From: Rhodamnia argentea
Taxonomy: Eukaryota; Streptophyta; Magnoliopsida; Myrtales; Myrtaceae
Direction: 5' to 3'
NCBI RefSeq assembly: GCF_020921035.1
Contig: NC_063150.1
Location: forward strand, 8,928,001-8,992,000
Length of the DNA: 64,000 nt
Positions 17,686-60,622 of the stretch are shown one piece after another (position 1 is the first letter of the stretch; every line of letters starts with the position of its first letter). The position numbers were made by a program, and so were the translations under genes. A model generated the notes under the pieces. It was not told the origin of the DNA and did no database searches. It was given only the letters and a program-made list of their open reading frames with translations.

Positions 17686-20600
17686 CTACATTTGAGGGGG
17701 CGAGTTGTGCTTCAGGACGACAAAGAAGAGGAAGGCCAGGCAAGCAAATAAGAGGGACATCACGGACAAGATGGCCATGTCGGTTCCTGTCCTGTCATAG
17801 CTCAAACTTCTCACCGAAGCCAACCTATCCCATACATAAGAACCGTCTGGCAGTTTTGGGCAACTGCAATCTGATGCGCACTCTTTAGTGTTGCAGTAGA
17901 AACTGATTGAAGTCATCACATTCATAGCATATTGGAAAGGGTTGCTCCAATACATCCACCGGTAGAACCTTATGTCTGATAGCACAACGACTATTCCAGA
18001 AGCCGAAACCCAAAGTGATGTCACAATCGACACAGCAAATGCAGCCAGTGTAGGCACTGGTGCTAGGAAAGTGATCATCATTCCGAAGTATGTCATGCAA
18101 ATTGTGAACACAAAGAGCACAGTCCAGTACATCATGAACTCATGGATGGAACCAGTTCCAATTCCAGCCATAACATTCCCGATTCCTGCTAATGTGAGTG
18201 TTGCAATGAAGAAGTACGGAATTTCTGCCAGTGCCCACGACAGTGGATAAAAGATAGGATGGTACATCCCTGCCCTCTTCTCTCTAAAGTACACTAATCT
18301 GTCTGTGCCAATCTGAGGAATGACATTATTTGCTGATATGACTCCTATGAGAATTGCTTGCATATATATATAGAGCGAGCGCGAAGTCAGGCCATATACG
18401 TCCTCATATTCAATCTTCCAATATAGGGAACCCATGAGAAGACCAATCATGATGCACCCAGTTAGTCTGCCAAATGTGTATTGTACATTTCTCCACAGGA
18501 ATCTTTGAGTTCTGAGCAGTACCATTATGGCTTGCAGTGTGTGTGGAGCAGGATAAACAGAAGACGAAACCATGTAATTCCTATCCTCAGTTAAACTCTT
18601 TATGCTGCGAATTTCTCTGTTGTTCACTTCATGCAGGGAACTAGCTTGGTAGGCCTCTGCAAAATTTATCATTGGTGCCGCTCTCCTTTTTATGCCTAAT
18701 CCGAGAGTTGCCATGACAAAACCAACTGGACTCGCTCTTTTGGAATACCAGGGAAATTTTGGAACTGATAAGAAATAATCTAGCAGGTCACTGCAGTCGG
18801 GTCCGATTGGGCCAAAGAATGCTTGCTGCCCTTCATGTGTCAAAATTAGGGCCAAGTCGAAGAAATCAAGTGTGCGAGCATTAGGGTGTGCTAAAGTGGC
18901 AACAATAACACGCCCTGAATTGGAAACTTGAGATAGAATGTTGAGGATACTTGACGTACCTCTGCTGTCCAGTCCTGATACCGGTTCTTCGAGAAAGAGA
19001 ATACTTGGATTAGCAGCTAGTTCAACAGCAATGGTTATCTTTTTGGCTATCTCAAATGTTTTCCCAGTAGCATCACCAAGGGAACCAACTAGTTGATTTG
19101 AGTAAGGCAATAGATCAAGTTGGTCAAGGACTAGCTCCACATGGATGCGACAATTCCCAGAACCGATTGTTTGACCAAGACGGAGTGCAGCGCTGAAATG
19201 AAGGGTCTCACGCACTGATAGATAAGGTTGGTGTGCATCGAGCTTCTCTACATAGCCAATAAGTCTAGAATAGGCAGGACCCTTTTGCCAACTTTTTGCC
19301 TGGAGGTTGCCCTTGAGGCTGCCAATTGAAGGTGCCCTCCCAGCCAGGCATTTCAGAAGAGTAGATTGACTTCCTTTCGAACCGCCCATTAAAGCAAGCA
19401 TGTTCCTAGGCCTAGCGTAACCCGTGATGTTGCTGAAAATTGAAGTACCCTCTTCCATGTCTTCATCGTACCTTATTTAGGGAGAGTAGGGTGTTAGACA
19501 GTGTGCAAATGGATAAAGCAAGCACACTCATACAGTCAACATTGCATGGAAATACGTGGAAGGAAAATTCCATGAGGATAGGATGTACCTCATGAATGAT
19601 AGATCCTCAAAAAGGAGAGTTATTGGCTCTAGTGGAATGCCTGGTCCATTCTTCTCCATATCAACCCTGAACTCCTCTATCCATTTTTCAACTCCGCCGT
19701 TGTCCCTTATTTTTCCGTATCTTTGTCGTCCAGAGTATCTGGAAGCTTTGAAACTATCGGTTTGTCCATTGGGACTTTCCAGTGACTGAAAACCACTCTC
19801 CATGTCCTCTTTAAGGTTTCTGATTGTCGGCGACCATCTGATAGAGGGCAAGGATTGGCTGGGTCCTGTGAATTCTATCCTCTTTAGCCCTAGTAATCCG
19901 AGGAAGTTGGCGATGAAAGTCCACCCAATAAGAACGATGTAAGGTAGCCAGCGCTTTTCGGCATCTTCAGATAGCTGATAGAATGCGAGGTACACTTTTC
20001 CAACGGTCATGTTAGGGAATTGATCGCAGAAGGCAAGCTGGCTTTGGTAACTGGAGCAAGGATCTTGATAGTCATTTTGAAATTGAATCCTGCAAAATAA
20101 TACGTTGGCCCAGTGGATTGGGTTCACCTGGACTAGCCATTTCCAGTATACCGGCACATTGGATGGGTAAATCACAAAACCACTGAACAGCAGGAAGATT
20201 GAAACTAGTAGGCCTGCCAAAAAGATGCAATTTTTGTCAGCTATTCTCACTTGATGCAGGATTTGTTTAAACAATGCAAAATGACCTCATAAGCATTGTG
20301 ATTCTGATTCTTTAAGGAGATGATATACCTGCCAGGGCATTCCCAACTTCTGGGATCGCGGAAATGGCACTGAGAAAGAAAAATACCGACGATCCAAAGT
20401 ACGCGACCAAGAATAAGAGCAGTAAATACTGGAAAAATGGTGCTCCATTTCCTGTTGATGATAGCCCAGCCAGGAAATAGACACTAACTGTATATGCTGT
20501 TGCCTGCAAAAGGCAATAGATATGTTGGAGTTTTATCTAGGTTCGCAACGATATCTAATTTGAAGAGGAAACAAACTAAGTGTGGTACTTCTATTAGGGT

Positions 20601-23600
20601 CTGCGGTAGGTTGACTACACAATGGGCGATGACATATGAGGAGACCCTGTAAAATCTCTGAGCCTTGTGCTTGTAGAAGGTTGGCCTCTGGAGCAAATAC
20701 AGAGGAAGCTGCACCAAATTTATGAGCGTAATGCTCATGGTGGATACGAATCCAAGGGCCCTTACTGAGTTCATCTGCTGTTGGTTGTAATTGCCGCCAA
20801 GCTTGTAGAATAGTGTTCCCGCAAATAAGCCCAGTACAATTGCCTGCAAAATGAACATATCTGCCGCTCATTTCTTGAATGAAGCAAACTTCACGCGAAA
20901 AGCGGATCTTATGTAGTTTCGGTCGTTCTGTGAACTTGGCTCTCTGTACTAGAATCTTCTGATAGCATAAGTTTGTGACCTGGAAAAGCCTCAGTTTAAT
21001 AAAAGCATGTAGCCTCTTCGTGATCTTGATTTGCCTCTTGATGAGTGTTTGAGTAGATTTCCACCATGTCTGGACGAACGGCCTCTGGAATTGCTTCCAT
21101 TGAGCTTGGTACTCATCTTCCTGCATGGTGAGAAATCATTAGCTGTTGTGACCAGGCTAGTCATCTTCTTTCTTTATCTCATGCTCAACTTTCTCAAGTT
21201 TCTTTTTTCATCCCATCCATGATACTTTTTTTTCATCGCATTTATCTTGCTGCCTCCCAACCCTCTTAGAAAGGAAGACAAAAAAGCCAAAGTTGCAAAA
21301 GATGTCTCTCATACCTCTTCTTTGTAACGCTCAACTTGGAGACGGATATGGCCTCTTGCTTGCTTTAGCATGGAGTATACGTGTGAGGATCGCTCATGTT
21401 GCATCTTTTGGGGTCTAACTGAGAGATATTGCATCTCATCGTTGTTTATGGATATCGCAGTCACCACATCCCCGACCTGAACTCTTCCGGTGCTTTCAAT
21501 TCCCCCTGAATGCCCTATTTTGCTTGATAGCTTGGCAACCACCAATTCTGCAGCAAAGTAACAATAGTCACCCATCTCTTAGGCTTCCTCAAATGTCCGA
21601 CATTCGACTTTAGCCTGTTAACTTGGCATATATTGGTTCATTGACATGAACAGGCCTAATAGTTATGTCTTGCAACATCTAGAGCGGCTTACCTGTCTCT
21701 TTTCTCGGCTGCACATCCACTGTGCAATGGTACTTAGATGGTGTCTTGAGACTCAACCCAAGTCCCGGCTCGCTCTCTACCCAGTAGGTATGCTTTACCT
21801 CATCTTCATGCACAATCCTCAGTATGTCTTTGTGGTGATCTGAAGCGTTGTAGCACTCAATAAGCTCCTCTAGAGTCAAGGATGTCGCTCCTGGTGCCAC
21901 ATACTTGGACCCATCTCCAGCTGCTATGTCTTCAAGAAATTCATTTGATTCCACAAGCAATGGTTTTATGTACCTGCTTGTGATGTCAGTGACATAATGT
22001 TAGCTCTATGTTGGCAAAAATTGTCACACCGCTTAATAGTATGTCCCAAACTCAGATGCATACTAACCCGAGTTTCGTGAAGTATGGGATGGCGTCATGG
22101 CGAGTGCCTTGGAAGAGAACATGGCCATTGCTCAGCAGTATAACTCGGTCGAAAAGATCGAATATCCCTTGGGAGAGTTGGGTCAGCGACACAATTGCAG
22201 ATGATTGCTCAATTCTGCTGATGGTGCGTAGGGTGTCCACCAGGTCGTAGGTGGCTGTGAGATCAGAACTTGAAAATGGTTGGTCATAAATCATGACGGA
22301 GTATGTTCCGAGTGCCAATTCAGCCGTTGTGAGCTTCTGGCGATCAAAATCGGAGAAGCCTTCTCCGGTGAGCTTGTGCTCGACTTCCTTCAAACTTAGA
22401 ATTGCTAAAACATATTCCAGGAACGGATCTTGTCCTTCCACAAGTGCATGTGCAAAGAATTTCCTCATCTGAGGAGTGAAGTTCTCTGGCCGGAGACCCT
22501 GGGTGCAATCCCTTGCAAACTCAAGTGTCTCTCTAACCGATAAAAATGGAATGTGTCTGCAGATTTCCAGAAAAAGTGTTAAGGACGTGACCGTGTGCTT
22601 ATCAAAGACTAGACAAAATTTCAATCGCAAGCCTCGCCTAATCTGCACAGAATGTCGGTGTTCAGGCGATAGAGGACTCACTCGTTAAGTTGGCCATTAA
22701 CGTACGCAATGAATCTGCTAAGGCATATATCAGTGACGGATTTGTCGTTGTACATCACTGAGCCTTCCAAACTTGAGTTTGGAGTTACTTTAGCTCTGCC
22801 TGCCAGGATTTCTAGGAGGGTGCTCTTTCCGCTTCCTGCAGAATTGTATATCCAATGGATCAGTCACTTGACAGAAAAGTTTGCTACTATCAACATTACT
22901 TGGCTTATCGATTTTAGAGGTGGCCTCTTTAGATTTATCATTTCGACAGGTATCATTGCTGTACTAGAGGAAATTTTCAGCTACCTGGAGGTCCTAGCAA
23001 CAGAGTCATCGAGCCCGGCATGATGTACCCGTCCACTCCCTCCAGGACACGCATCAAAATCGAGCTTTTTCTCTGAAGTATAGTCTTGACTGGCCCAAGG
23101 AGGCATCCCATCAATTTGTTCCCGAAGGTTGCATAGCCTCCCGAGGAGATTTCGCAGTTTCTGGAATATCTAATGCCGAAGAACCGAACCACCTGCAAGA
23201 CAGTTCGATTTTTGCTGAACCTTAGATACTGCTTACGTTGGTTAACTGTCGGAATGATGTATGTTTACCTTATGTTCATGTTCTGTTTCCGGCAATTAGT
23301 TCTGTATCGTAATGGCATTATCATTTTGGGTACATCCCATGTGTAGTCAGGAATGATCATTAGCCTTTTTTTTTTGGTCAAAAGAAACGATCATTAGCTC
23401 GCTATGCATATTTTCAATGGAAAATGACATGGCTATCAACAATATATACTGGGTTTTTCGTTTTATTTTGGGTAATAAAACGAGGGATAATAGTCCAAAA
23501 AATTCTAAACCTATTATACCGCAGCCAATTCAGTCCTAAACATTTAGTTGGGCCAATGTAGTTTTCAACCGTTTGGAGATTTGTCAATTTAGTCCTAAAT

Positions 23601-26600
23601 TTTTTGATAATTTGTCAATTTGGTCTTTTTTGCCAATATAAGTTTAGCACTAAATTGACAAAACTTCAAAAGATTTAGGACTAAATCGGCAACTTCAAAA
23701 TGTTTAAGACTAAATTGAAGTATTTGAAATATTTAGGACTAAATTGACAAATCGTCACATGGTTCGGGACTAAATTAGCACAAGTAAAAGGTTTAAGACT
23801 GAATGGGCAAATCATCATAAAAAGTTCTAGCACCTTTTGGGAAATTTTTCAGACAGAACCTTGTTTTCATTCCATGTATGACGTATGAATGAGTGGACAG
23901 CCATCTGAAAAGGATAGGTGAAGATCTTAATCAAGGGTCAACTTGAACGTCAATCTCTTCTTGTATTTGATATGGTCGACTGAAGGACCCAAAAAATTAG
24001 TGTCAAAGCTTGGGGCCTGATATGGAAAAGTCTATCACAATCAGGAAGAGAAAAGGACAAATAGAGGAGCTCCGGCCAAACAACAAGTAAGATTCTCCAA
24101 TTTTTCGTATCACGTCAGCCGGCTATGATCATGACTTTATGTTTAGAAATTACATGTTTCTTATGTTGGTGACGAGGAAGTAGGAAAATGTTTCTAAAAA
24201 GTCCTAAGCCTATTTTGGGGAAAAATACATTTTTAGTGTCAAAAGTTGTGTACGGAAATCACTTTGGTGCCAAAAGTTTCAATCCGATCACTTTAGTGCC
24301 AAGTCGGAGATAAAAGGATCATTTTGGTGCTTACGGCGAGAATTTTCGGCCAAAATTGCTACGTGTCATTAATAATTATTTTTTTAAATAAAAAATGACA
24401 TTTTAAAAAATAAATAAATCCACGTGGACTTCTGCACTTTAAAATAAAAAAAATTCAAATTTAAAAATTAGATAAAAATTAAATTCATTAAAAATAAGCT
24501 AATTTTTTTAAAAAAAAATTAAAGCTAAAAAAAAAAATTTGGTGGAGAACTAGGCAGCGAACCTTAAGCCCCACCATTGTCAGTAATGCTAGTGGTGATG
24601 GGGCATGGCCCGCGGGAGTAGCCGAGCCTCGGCTAGGGGCCGACGACCCCTGCCAACCGCGGGCAAGGGTCGCCGGCCCCCGCCGAGGACCGCCACTTAG
24701 GAGGGGGGGTTGGTTGCTAGTGGCGGCCCTCGGCCGGACCTAGGCGAAGGCCGGCGACCCTTGCTCGATCTAGGTGAGGGCCTCGCCTGCCGGCCATGCC
24801 CCACCACCGCTAGCCATTGCCGGCGACGTGGGGCGGGGGCGGCGAGGGCTATGCAAAGCCCTCACCGCCTTCAAACATTCACCCTTTTTTTTTTTAAATT
24901 TTTTTTAATTTTTAACCTAAATTTTCAAATTATTTTGAAAAAAACAATTTGTATTTTTTTTTATTTTTGTAAGCTAATCAAGTTTTTATTTTTATTCTTA
25001 GTATTGTTTTATTTTTACCTTGTTATATCTTGATTGGACCTCGCCATTGCCACGTCAATTTCAAATAATAATAAAATAATGCCACATCGGATTTCTAGCG
25101 GAACAAATTGGACTTGTCACTAAAACGATCATTTTTCAAAAAAACTTGGCACTAAAGTGATCCAACTGAAATTTTTGGCACTAAAGTTATCTACATACAC
25201 AACTTTTAGTCCTAAAAGTGTACTTTTCCTACCTATTCTGCTTTTACCAATTCAATTCTAAATTTTTTACTTTTGTCAATCGCTGATCTTAATGCCAACA
25301 GTCCTGCGTGGACAATTTTTAATATTTTTATTTTATTTCTTTTTCTTATTGTAGTCGGTGAGAGTCGTCGGGCCTTCGTCGGCTGTAGGTGAGGGCTGGG
25401 CAACCCTTGCCCAAGTTTGGGCCTGGATGCCTTGCCTACAGCTGCGATGGCCTCGCCCAAATCTAGGCATGGTTGCCTTGCTGCAGTTGCGATGGCCTCG
25501 CCCTAATCTAGGCAAGACCGAGTGAGGGCTCGATGACCATTGTCTAGTGGCTGGCAAGGGCTTGATGATCTTCACTGGTCACATTATGAAAAAAAATAAA
25601 GAAAAGAAAAAATGCATAAAAATAAATAAATAATCGAATAGATTAAAATATTATTAAAAATTATCCACGTCAGATCTGGCCGTGCTACGTAGGCCGGTCG
25701 GCGCCCACATCGACGATTTCGGACCAAAATTGATCGGATGAACTCAATTGGCAAAACAAGAAAAAGATTTAGGACTCAATTGATAAAATTAAAAGGTTTA
25801 TGACTGAATTGACAAAAGTGCAACATTATTAGGATTTTTGTGATAATTTTTCCTAAGAAAGTATCGTACTTTTCAATGATGTTCTTATTGTTTGTAATAG
25901 GAAGGAAATATTTGCTGTTGAACTTCGTAAAGGGTGGTCGAGATCACTTCTTGATTCTTCTTGATCTATATGGCATCAATCAACGTTCTTATTCAAGCTT
26001 AAACATATGAACTATTTATATAGAGAAGAGACTGTAGTCTGTAACGCATGTCATTGCATGGTTTATGTATGGCATGTAAAAGAACATAAAGAGAGAGTCA
26101 CGCTGTATTTCACCTGCTGCGGGATAGGGGGTGTGATCTTGGCCATGTCCCGCAAATAACTCACGAAACCATCCTTCAGCAAGTACTCCATTCCCATAAG
26201 CTCCTCCGACTTCTTCCTCGCGCTCTCATCTCCTTCGTCTCTGATCTCTTCCATGTCGCCTCCGACGTCTCCGGCAAACGCTCTTCCAGCTTCGCTCCTC
26301 AAACCGTTCCTCTTCAAGCTCTCGTACATCCTCAGCGCCACTTGCCTCGCGGTCTTGGGCGACGCGCTCTCTATCTTCCTCCGCACGTCTGGGGACGACC
26401 GGCCCAAGAACCTCGCTGCCCCGCGGGGAGTCACGGGCGTCATCGGGGCTGCGCTCCCCGGGGCTGGCAAAGTGATCACGCTGGCGGCGTCGCTTCTCAC
26501 CGTGTGCTCACTGGGGAAGGAGGGCCTCTGCGCATCGACGTTGTTCGTGGCGCTGCCTTCTTGTGCCCACCACATCATGTTCGGCTGCGGGCTCACCGGA

Positions 26601-26614
26601 GAATTGTTTGCCAT
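17686..26614 (-). CDS. Full-size ABCG/PDR-type transporter with a PDZ-like insertion and degenerate ATP sites
   Basis: Eleven exons on the minus strand, in transcript order: 26614-26114, 23192-22985, 22835-22682, 22556-22068, 21973-21693, 21547-21315, 21120-20980, 20843-20589, 20503-20329, 20213-19589 and 19471-17686. Every junction keeps phase, giving 4848 nt (1615 residues), longer than typical plant PDRs (about 1450). Order: Ser/Pro-rich N-terminus (1-167); NBD1 with intact Walker A GPPGSGKS, a signature degraded to GEGFSDFDRQ and Walker B IYDQP (Gln for Glu); PDZ-like domain (about 512-618); TMD1; an extracytoplasmic loop; NBD2 with Walker A GGSKGSQST (no Lys) and Walker B LFLEEP; TMD2. 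The TMDs look complete. The half-transporters resemble oomycete PDR proteins more than usual plant PDRs. Exon 1 was joined because its CAG|GTG end and the next TTGCAG|GTG start are both phase 0. Function and substrate are unknown; ATPase activity may be weak or absent. Confidence 0.85.
23480..23870. repeat. Foldback repeat, 'tttaggactaaattg' family
   Basis: The left half repeats words such as tcaatttagtcctaaa and the right half their reverse complement tttaggactaaattgaca, so the whole can fold into one long imperfect hairpin. The same family recurs at 24183-25854, 27423-28986, about 30510-31440 and 39099-39502. The ends are uncertain here because no target duplication was seen. Confidence 0.65.
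24183..25854. mobile_element. Mutator-like foldback element, interrupted by a second one
   Basis: The ends read ggaaaatgtttctaaaaagtcc on the left and, reverse-complemented, aggaaaaattatcac on the right. Flanks gaggaagta (24174-24182) and aagaaagta (25855-25863) match at 7 of 9 positions, consistent with a 9-bp duplication. The outer element belongs to the tttaggactaa family. It contains a second element (24218-25231) and, to the right of that, its own GC-rich core near 25360-25570. Confidence 0.6.
24218..25231. mobile_element. Nested foldback element, 'ggcactaaagtgatc' family
   Basis: Long terminal inverted repeats of roughly 90 bp: both ends, read inward, run gg(a)aaaa.tacattttta... and then carry actttagtgccaa and gatcactttagtgcc words. 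Flanks cctattttg (24209-24217) and cctattctg (25232-25240) match at 8 of 9, a likely 9-bp target duplication. A GC-rich core at about 24550-24860 is bordered by A/T homopolymers. It is inserted into the left arm of the element at 24183-25854. Confidence 0.7.
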
Positions 26615-27380: not shown

Positions 27381-27710
27381 GTCAAAAACATTTTGGTTGC
27401 AAAAATGGCTTAGTAAATTGGTGGGAAAATTGTCCAAAAAGTTCTAAACTTATTGCATTTGTGCTAATTCAATCCTAAACTTTTCAATTGTGTTAATTTA
27501 GTTATAAACCTTTTGGCAACTTGTCAATTTTAATCCTAAACAATTCAATCCTATATCTTTCAATTATGCCAATTTGGTCTTAAACCTTTTAATGATTTGT
27601 CAAACTAGTCTTAAACCTTTTCATGAATTACCAATTTAGTCCTTTTGGCAAATTACTCAAATAATAGGTTTAGGACTAAAATGGCAAAACTTCAAAAGAT
27701 TTAGGACTAA

Positions 27711-58093: not shown

Positions 58094-60211
58094 TCACCAA
58101 TAGTCTCTGCAGGAACAGGAGCCATCCTTGAAATGGTGGAATCTGTTCGCATCCCGCAAGATTATCTCTCTTCTGGTGACTTTTGCAATTAATTTGATTG
58201 CAGAATGACAGTCACCACAAACTCGAAGATTCTTCATTACTCGGATAGGCATGCCTTCTGGTATCTTCAAAAGCCCAAAAGCTACAGCAAGTTTTTCACT
58301 GTGATACCTTAAGCTATGCACTTTTTCTTCCTCATCGATGTCATGAAGCACAAAGCTACCATCAGGAGAATAACCCGCTTGTCTCAACAACACACCCAAT
58401 TTCTCCAGCATTCTCAAGATACCAACATACTCAGGATGGCTCCTAGAGTCTCCTCCAGTAAACATATGTACTTTCTTTTCCACTTCAATCCAGCTACAGC
58501 CAGGTGACTTGATTACACTCATTGACCTCATTTTTCTCCTTAAATCTGCAACATCAGTCCACTTACCTTTTGATGCATAAAGATTTGACAACAAGATGTA
58601 AGGTCCAGCATTCTCAGGTTCCAGTTCTAAAAGTTTCTTCACTGCAACTTCTGCCAAATCCAAGTTCATGTATGTCCTGCATGCACCTAGCAAAGCACCC
58701 CAAACTACAGCATCAGCTTCCACTGGCATCCCCACTATTAGATTCATGGCCTCATTTAACCTGCCAGCCCGGCCAAGCAAATCAACCATGCAAGCATAAT
58801 GTTCAGTCTGGGGCTCCACTAGATATTTGCTCTTCATCGAATCAAAAATCTCTAGCCCTTCACTTACCTTCCCAGTGTAGCTACATGCTGAGAGAACTCC
58901 CACAAAGGTAACTTCATCTGGAGGAATCATTGAAGAGCACATCTCTTTAAATACTCTCAAAGCCTCTTCTCCTAAACCATGTTGTGCATAACCTGTAATT
59001 ATAGAATTCCACATGACCACATCCTTAACACCAAACCGATCAAACACCAGTTTTGCTCCTACAAGGTTTCCACACTTAATATACATTGTGATGAGAACTG
59101 AGGTAACATACACATCAAAGTCAAAGTGGGACCTGATCAACTGGGCATGAACCTGTCTGCCTTGATCAAGACATGCCAAGCTGGCACAAACAGATAGGAT
59201 ACCAATTAAGGAAGGAAAGCTCGGTCTGACCCCCTCTCTCTGCATCATAGCAAACAAGTCCAACGCTTCCAAGTCAAACCCTTTCCGCTCATACACCTTA
59301 ATCATTGCACTCCATGTTCCATCATCCTTCTCTCTCATCATATCAAATACCTGCCTTGCTTTAACTACCTCCCCACTCTGGCCAAATCCAAGGATCATTG
59401 CATTACAGGCAACAACCGACTTCACTGGCATCGCATCGAAAATTTCTGAGGCCTCCTCTATCCGCCCACACTGGGTATAGCCCATCAGCATTGCTGTCCA
59501 GGACACCTCGTTCTTTTCTGGCATCACTTCGAAAAGCTTCCTAGCAATGTCCACCCGATTATTCTGTGCATACCCAGTGATCATGGCCGTCCAGCAGATT
59601 AAATTCCTATCCGGCATCTCATCAAAAATTTCCCTCGCTTCATCAAGGTGTCCTCCCTGACAGTACCCTCCAATCATATTAGTCCTAGCGACAACATCCT
59701 TGAGAGGCATCATATCAAAGAGCTGACGGGCCTCATCAATCCTACCATCTTGAATCAAGCCCCCCAACATCACAGTCCATGATACAACATTCTTCTCAGG
59801 CATTTGCCAAAAAAGCAATTCAGCCGCGGATATCATCCCCTCCTGCACATACCCCCTCACCATTGCCGTCCACGAAACAACATTGCGCTCGGGCATCACA
59901 TCAAATGCTTTTCTGGCTTCATCGATCATCCCATTCTTAACGTATCCAGAAACCAACCCATTCCACGAAACCGTGTTCCTCTCAGGCATTCTATCAAACA
60001 GCTTCCGCGCTTCATGGGGCCTGCTGTTCTGGAAGTACCCGGCAATAACCGCGTTCCATGATGCAATAGGCTTCTGAAGCAGTTGGTCGAACACCCTTCG
60101 CGCATTATCAATTTGTCCTAGACGCGCGAGTCGGGTGATATGGGAAGTGCCGGAGATCGCTGCTTGAGTACAGAAAGCACGACATGGGACCGTTACGAAC
60201 TTCGTCCGCAT
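58094..60211 (-). CDS. Pentatricopeptide repeat protein, PLS-DYW subclass (At1g56690-like)
   Basis: A single exon, 705 residues. The N-terminus (MRTKFVTVPCRAFCTQ) is positively charged and lacks acids, as expected for an organellar (likely mitochondrial) presequence. It is followed by tandem PLS-type PPR motifs with recurrent VSWNGLVSGYVKNGMIDEA, MPERN and VSWTAM units, then E/E+ motifs and a C-terminal DYW domain. The DYW domain carries HSEK (the HxE zinc-site motif, in YHSEKLA), CGDCHSA and the terminal CSCRDYW. Known: DYW proteins bind organellar RNA and carry C-to-U deaminase activity; this one appears complete. It is close in arrangement to Arabidopsis At1g56690. The intronless structure is usual. 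The start is the first in-frame ATG, and the protein ends exactly in DYW. Confidence 0.95.
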   Translation of the reverse strand: MRTKFVTVPCRAFCTQAAISGTSHITRLARLGQIDNARRVFDQLLQKPIASWNAVIAGYFQNSRPHEARKLFDRMPERNTVSWNGLVSGYVKNGMIDEARKAFDVMPERNVVSWTAMVRGYVQEGMISAAELLFWQMPEKNVVSWTVMLGGLIQDGRIDEARQLFDMMPLKDVVARTNMIGGYCQGGHLDEAREIFDEMPDRNLICWTAMITGYAQNNRVDIARKLFEVMPEKNEVSWTAMLMGYTQCGRIEEASEIFDAMPVKSVVACNAMILGFGQSGEVVKARQVFDMMREKDDGTWSAMIKVYERKGFDLEALDLFAMMQREGVRPSFPSLIGILSVCASLACLDQGRQVHAQLIRSHFDFDVYVTSVLITMYIKCGNLVGAKLVFDRFGVKDVVMWNSIITGYAQHGLGEEALRVFKEMCSSMIPPDEVTFVGVLSACSYTGKVSEGLEIFDSMKSKYLVEPQTEHYACMVDLLGRAGRLNEAMNLIVGMPVEADAVVWGALLGACRTYMNLDLAEVAVKKLLELEPENAGPYILLSNLYASKGKWTDVADLRRKMRSMSVIKSPGCSWIEVEKKVHMFTGGDSRSHPEYVGILRMLEKLGVLLRQAGYSPDGSFVLHDIDEEEKVHSLRYHSEKLAVAFGLLKIPEGMPIRVMKNLRVCGDCHSAIKLIAKVTRREIILRDANRFHHFKDGSCSCRDYW

Positions 60212-60622
60212 ATGAATCTACAAGACGAAGTTCCAAGACCGTAAAAGTTGGGAGTTTTTTCTCTCTTTCAGCCGATGCGTGGTTTTTCCACTTACCTAAG
60301 CATCGATTAACTTAAAATGCAGGTCTTGGCCCGAAATAGTTAAGCTCGCTACCCAGATGAGATCGACTGAACGGTCTAGCGGACACAACACGAGCTCCAT
60401 GCATGGGCCGATATTTTGATGGAGAGGACTTCGGACTTCGACCCTTTTTTTTTTTTTGGGTCGAAGACTTACAGGTATTTTTTTTTTGGTCGAAGACTTC
60501 GAGGGTTGATTAGGCATGAAATGGCTTTTTTGCTAGATGAACTCTCTTGAGTCTTCGACACTCTCTACTGCTAGAAATATTTACTTCCTCGTGACGGAGA
60601 AAACACAAAACACCGTGCAAGT

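Follow-up and report, generated by a model that had tools for sequence, protein, structure and literature searches.

A full-size ABCG gene of Rhodamnia argentea with degenerate-looking ATP sites and a probable PDZ-like insert between NBD1 and TMD1

In plants, PDZ modules are known mainly from the Deg and Ctp proteases. The hallmarks of a PDZ domain are a carboxylate-binding loop of the form X-phi-G-phi and a G-x-GD turn, and a basic residue is usual ahead of the GLGF-type loop. Among ABC proteins, SUR1 is an ABC-fold protein that acts as the regulator of Kir6.2; the SUR proteins belong to ABCC, retain one competent site and are not known to contain a PDZ domain. In the Pdr5-type proteins, one composite ATP site is degenerate and the other is canonical (PMC7756269). 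In PMC4598015 the terms 'ABC transporter G family' and 'PDZ domain' are used of different proteins; the PDZ protein is ZKT, a plant molecular adaptor. ZKT is a plant protein with a PDZ-type module, as the protein described here would be, but it is not presented there as a membrane ABC protein. Among the literature matches listed, no title or opening of an abstract reported an ABCG protein with a PDZ-like domain.

The stretch of DNA analysed here (the window; 64,000 nucleotides of Rhodamnia argentea contig NC_063150.1) contains an ABCG gene of 11 exons on its minus strand, running from 26614 to 17686 and encoding 1,615 codons plus a stop without interruption. Its exon borders were placed by hand from open frames and GT/AG sites, and the result was then translated. 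Pfam finds ABC_tran in two stretches and ABC2_membrane in two stretches, which gives the layout NBD1-TMD1-NBD2-TMD2, the order of full-size ABCG (PDR) proteins, and hydrophobic segments lie in both TMDs (six at residues 659-923 and five at 1387-1612). This domain order is the same as in the PDR genes of the same genome and in Pdr5 and CDR1; the window protein differs from them by about 100 residues before TMD1 and by altered catalytic residues at both ATP sites. The features are as follows.

26114..26614, minus strand: exon 1, the N-terminal 167 residues; open frame from the chosen ATG and a GT donor
22985..23192, minus strand: exon 2, start of NBD1; GT/AG borders, frame kept
22682..22835, minus strand: exon 3, NBD1; canonical Walker A GPPGSGKST across the exon 2/3 junction (22994-22819)
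22068..22556, minus strand: exon 4, NBD1; degenerate signature EGFSDFDR at 22363-22340 and Walker B VMIYDQPF at 22297-22274
21693..21973, minus strand: exon 5, end of the NBD1 linker; PDZ-like insert from 21792, GLGLSL at 21765-21748
21315..21547, minus strand: exon 6, most of the PDZ-like insert; GRVQVGDVV from 21488, IRLQVER to 21327
20980..21120, minus strand: exon 7, start of TMD1; Pfam ABC2_membrane at residues 645-857
20589..20843, minus strand: exon 8, TMD1
20329..20503, minus strand: exon 9, TMD1
19589..20213, minus strand: exon 10, end of TMD1 and linker toward NBD2
17686..19471, minus strand: exon 11, NBD2, TMD2 and stop codon
NBD2 motifs in exon 11: GGSKGSQST at 19386-19360, Q-loop GYVEKLDAH at 19257-19231, signature region ATGKTFEIAKKI at 19071-19036
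NBD2 motifs in exon 11, continued: Walker B ILFLEEP at 19002-18982, H-loop VATLAHPN at 18903-18880
Protein residues 512-618, from exons 5-6: PDZ-like segment
Motifs within this segment: GLGLSL at residues 521-526, ELVVAKLSS at 545-553, GRVQVGDVV at 565-573, SSHVYSMLKQ at 598-607, IRLQVER at 612-618

The preliminary description had assigned exons 5 and 6 of an ABCG gene to 21315..21973, and this assignment holds, with exon borders at 21973-21693 and 21547-21315 inside an uninterrupted gene model. Both exons have GT/AG borders and are coding in the annotated frame only, at 0.286 and 0.275 bits per codon, and both lie outside the training set; the nine other exons, all within it, score 0.231-0.466. 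Skipping was considered as a way in which transcripts could escape the insert and was ruled out, since dropping exon 5, exon 6 or both breaks the frame. Exon 1, which stands beyond a 2.9 kb intron and is supported by its open frame and donor site, without a homology match, scores 0.466 bits per codon and is itself part of the training set. Among its 167 residues (26114-26614, minus strand) are Ser-Pro and Thr-Pro pairs (SPVSPQ, PMTPVTP), potential phosphorylation sites. By eye, several AT-rich stretches of the type taggactaaattgacaaa, near-repeats of one another, are seen in both orientations in intron 1 (23193-26113, 2,921 bases) and at 27430-27700; those of intron 1 and beyond the gene are apparently repeat debris. 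Elsewhere in the window, the minus strand at 58094-60217 carries a 707-residue open frame with pentatricopeptide-like repeats and the ending ...CSCRDYW, which we take to be that of the DYW-type organelle RNA editing factors.

We compared the ATP-site motifs of the protein with those of other ABCG genes in the same genome, using 30 loci (29 plus the window gene) that were fetched from 82 match rows. In NBD1 of the window protein, Walker A (GPPGSGKST) is intact, but the signature has changed to EGFSDFDR and VMIYDQP carries Gln in place of the catalytic Glu; the three ordinary PDR NBD1 sequences (L039-L041 only) all keep (I/L)SGGQ and MDE. NBD2 is altered more widely: the Lys of Walker A (GGSKGSQST), the Gln of the Q-loop (GYVEKLDAH) and the signature (region ATGKTFEIAKK) are all changed, the Asp of Walker B (ILFLEEP) is replaced by Glu while the catalytic Glu is kept (LEEP), and the H-loop reads TLAHP where others have T-x-HQP (for example, TIHQP), so that the aligned His is changed and a His stands one place later. 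In the 29 other loci, the Walker A Lys and the Q-loop Gln are kept in all 28 that cover them, and the Walker B Asp-Glu pair and the H-loop His in all 29. Combined across the two halves, site 1 keeps GPPGSGKST next to YDQP and faces the signature region ATGKTFEIAKK, and site 2 consists of GGSKGSQST, LEEP and TLAHP facing FSDFD. A complete ATPase site, with Walker A Lys, Walker B Asp-Glu, H-loop and the opposite signature, is thus found at neither of the two positions, and both composite sites look degenerate.

Strong decay of one composite site is a feature that the protein shares with Pdr5; the other site is canonical in Pdr5 (PMC7756269) and has decayed as well in the window protein. Because the site that is canonical in the Pdr5-type proteins is the more damaged one here, ATP hydrolysis by the window protein appears unlikely, and binding of nucleotide at NBD1 is possible. 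Unusual ABC proteins can retain some activity. The gene had been described beforehand as an ordinary transporter; with the catalytic motifs degenerate at both composite sites, the label 'transporter' is itself doubtful. It could still be a full-size ABCG transporter that works despite unusual ATP sites, in which the PDZ-like insert regulates or localises the protein through the tail of a partner; this is close to the preliminary description, which proposed that the insert would let a plant ABC transporter bind C-terminal tails. The complete NBD1-TMD1-NBD2-TMD2 layout with hydrophobic segments in both TMDs, the intact Walker A of NBD1 and the Walker B Glu kept in NBD2 are in keeping with this, as is the functional state of Pdr5 with one degenerate site (PMC7756269). 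However, the changes of Lys, Gln, Asp, aligned His and signature in NBD2, which hit hardest the very site that is canonical in Pdr5, make a working transporter unlikely.

The linker between NBD1 and TMD1 is 189 residues long in the window protein, as compared with 81 residues in each of two ordinary PDR proteins encoded in this genome, when measured between landmarks chosen by eye ('GYIKP' at the end of NBD1 and 'TWWKSTQ' at the start of TMD1, with the equivalents in the PDR proteins also a matter of judgement). In the phmmer alignments, 167 query residues stand against 68 in CDR1 and 164 against 70 in Pdr5. The surplus is therefore about 94-108 residues overall, and 94-99 relative to CDR1 and Pdr5, which bears out the earlier proposal that an insert lies where ordinary PDR proteins have a linker only. 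A MAFFT alignment with the two PDR proteins scattered the gaps, and the excess residues did not fall into one block. The genome yielded a single instance of the insert; no second copy was detected at E<=1 in searches that covered the 346.66 Mb assembly.

A PDZ-like domain had been proposed for this insert on the strength of a series of motifs, and all of them are located, in the quoted order, at residues 521-618 of the rebuilt protein; the X-phi-G-phi loop is present as GLGL (521-524) and the G-x-GD turn as GRVQVGD (565-571). Pfam gave no PDZ match (PF00595, PF17820, PF13180) for the whole protein or for a 139-residue piece at E<=1, nor for four fragments at E<=10, so that the PF00595/PF17820 profile search suggested in the preliminary description came back empty. 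There was likewise no PDZ match in the PDB by phmmer, and the NCBIfam search of the insert returned one line only, VV20781_fam at E 0.062, far below its cut-off. Standard search programs pre-filter weak matches, and the HMMER pre-filters discard them; profiles were therefore compared directly, with a PDZ profile made from 13 hand-entered eukaryotic PDZ sequences, of which eight were scanned and all eight match PF00595. With hhalign, residues 506-625 matched this profile at 82% probability over 72 columns with a score of 33.5, collinear from GLGL to RLQVER. None of 100 shuffles reached this score (shuffle maximum 19.6). When the protein was cut into 13 consecutive pieces of 120 residues, the 11 clear of the insert scored at most 13.2, and the two overlapping it scored 27.3 (481-600) and 16.4 (601-720).

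The same profile was aligned to 1,113 segments, namely the ORFs of at least 60 residues from the window and 35 loci in pieces of up to 120, plus three pieces of the window ABCG protein. The top five (34-55) come from five of the six places (L001-L006) at which a PF17820 profile search hits the same genome, and the insert ranks sixth; scores of 33.0-33.5 belong to the insert, the exon-6 ORF and exon 6, and no unrelated segment exceeds 23.0. Of the six PF17820 loci, L002 alone is absent from the best 15 of the 1,113. All 12 half-profiles place the insert above its reversed sequence (37-84% versus at most 2.4%), four of them aligning the exon-6 part only, and a profile of the eight checked sequences alone gives 74% and a score of 31.8 against a shuffle maximum of 18.0. 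In an hmmsearch with a 10-sequence PDZ profile, the exon-6 ORF came first among 789 window ORFs, with an E of 3.2e-6 (E for one sequence) as compared with 1.6e-3 for the next ORF and 2.7e-3 for the best of 200 shuffles; the whole protein reached only 5.8e-4 with the same profile. The PDZ signal sits in exon 6, since the exon-5 part alone (506-545, which includes GLGL) scores 14.2 at 2.5% probability. AlphaFold2, given exon 6 alone without the first strands, returned coil and one helix (pLDDT 43.7, pTM 0.23), a model of too low confidence to count for or against the domain.

As relatives of the window ABCG gene, L001-L006 were ruled out, with no tblastn match at E<=0.01. Three of these loci (L001, L002 and L004) lie within about 30 kb of one another (G000:C1:31.68-31.71 Mb), and L002 has a stop inside its match. 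The motif GSPADRAGI(Q/R)TGDVV in L001 and L004, which we presume to be of the Deg/HtrA type, suggests tandem Deg/HtrA-like genes.

Taken together, what stands of the proposed domain is a collinear profile match above chance, borne mostly by exon 6, and what does not is a contribution of the exon-5 part on its own. We consider it likely that the insert has a PDZ-like fold, and it is for the missing score of the exon-5 part that we do not put this higher. The domain is called 'PDZ-like' because the Pfam and PDB sequence searches were silent and the fold model is of low confidence. With eukaryotic PDZ domains of the PSD-95, syntrophin, nNOS and GRIP type (hand-entered sequences), it shares the order GLGL, ELVVAKL, G-x-GD, VYSMLKQ and IRLQVER; it differs from them in falling below Pfam detection, in a longer loop ahead of the last helix and in its setting inside a membrane protein. 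It also differs in a spacing of 18 residues from GLGLSL to the strand that follows (ELVVAKL) and in the absence of a basic residue among the nine (HTYWVESEP, 512-520) that precede GLGL. These last two features, together with the lack of detection by Pfam, would suit a fold that serves as a structural spacer, or as an intramolecular clamp between NBD1 and TMD1, and has no peptide ligand; the GLGL loop and the G-x-GD turn speak against it, the points on neither side are decisive, and we regard this as a distinctly unlikely account of the insert. It is very improbable that the likeness arose by chance in some other small domain or a disordered loop: the silent Pfam and PDB searches, the low score of the GLGL-containing exon-5 part and the AlphaFold2 model agree with chance, but the empty shuffle count, the agreement of all 12 half-profiles and the rank of the insert directly behind five PF17820 loci, well clear of the best unrelated segment, do not.

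For both halves of the protein, the best-scoring relatives of solved structure are the fungal PDR proteins CDR1 and Pdr5, with CDR1 the best; exon 11 resembles the C-terminal halves of the two (E 2.9e-59 for CDR1), and the closest NBD identity is 35-39%. A tree built from 31 NBD rows attaches NBD2, from outside, to 17 rows taken as PDR NBD2 by their signature (98/91), and NBD1 to the single PDR NBD1 row (99/93). The NBD2 and NBD1 branches measure 2.25 and 2.67 changes per column, and such long branches may, as the program warns, join falsely. Without the NBD1 rows (29 rows, unrooted), NBD2 falls outside the 17 sampled PDR rows (99/97) and outside 11 half-size rows (98/92); it stands between the two groups in an unrooted tree, which leaves the nearer group undecided. 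The gene would accordingly be either an old PDR relative or a fast-evolving gene. No relatives were confirmed in the viral, bacterial and archaeal record collections, a scope outside which plant orthologs lie, and orthologs may well sit unnoticed in plant databases.

An intact frame of 4.8 kb at such divergence argues for selection. A decaying ABCG copy, released from catalytic constraint and turning into a pseudogene, with the PDZ likeness partly a product of drift, is in our view very improbable. It would account for the very long branches, the motif decay and the failure to find a paralog with the insert in the genome, but hardly for 1,615 codons that are all intact, a full set of splice borders, a codon bias in all 11 exons (nine of them within the training set) or an insert that outscores all 100 shuffles, which drift would not produce.

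We therefore favour, at a probability of about one half, a retained pseudo-ABCG that serves as a membrane scaffold bearing a PDZ-like domain, or as a sensor of nucleotide; this reading and its rivals partly overlap, and not all of them are mutually exclusive. In such a protein, pumping by ATP hydrolysis would be absent, and the full-size NBD1-TMD1-NBD2-TMD2 frame of the PDR type would provide a membrane platform. The PDZ-like domain of about 100 residues, placed at the cytosolic side between NBD1 and TMD1, would dock a partner beside the membrane by its C-terminal tail or an internal strand. NBD1 may, with its intact Walker A, still bind nucleotide and alter how the NBDs are arranged. The exposure of the PDZ-like module may also depend on nucleotide at NBD1. 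The working principle proposed here, an ABC frame used as a regulator, would by analogy be that of SUR1 and SUR2.

More tentatively, and with the odds against it, the gene could represent an old line of plant pseudo-ABC proteins that has so far gone unrecognised: full-size ABCG proteins that lost both ATPase sites, gained a PDZ-like docking domain and became nucleotide-sensing membrane scaffolds, forming a PDZ-based assembly point at the membrane apart from the Deg and Ctp proteases and from ZKT. Work on plant ABCG proteins treats them as ATP-driven exporters. If a conserved ABCG member lacks catalytic sites and has a docking domain, transporter surveys would be counting non-pumps among the pumps. 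Such a member would also provide a testable example of a PDZ-like domain in use by a membrane protein of plants, and would open a route to its partners through their tails.
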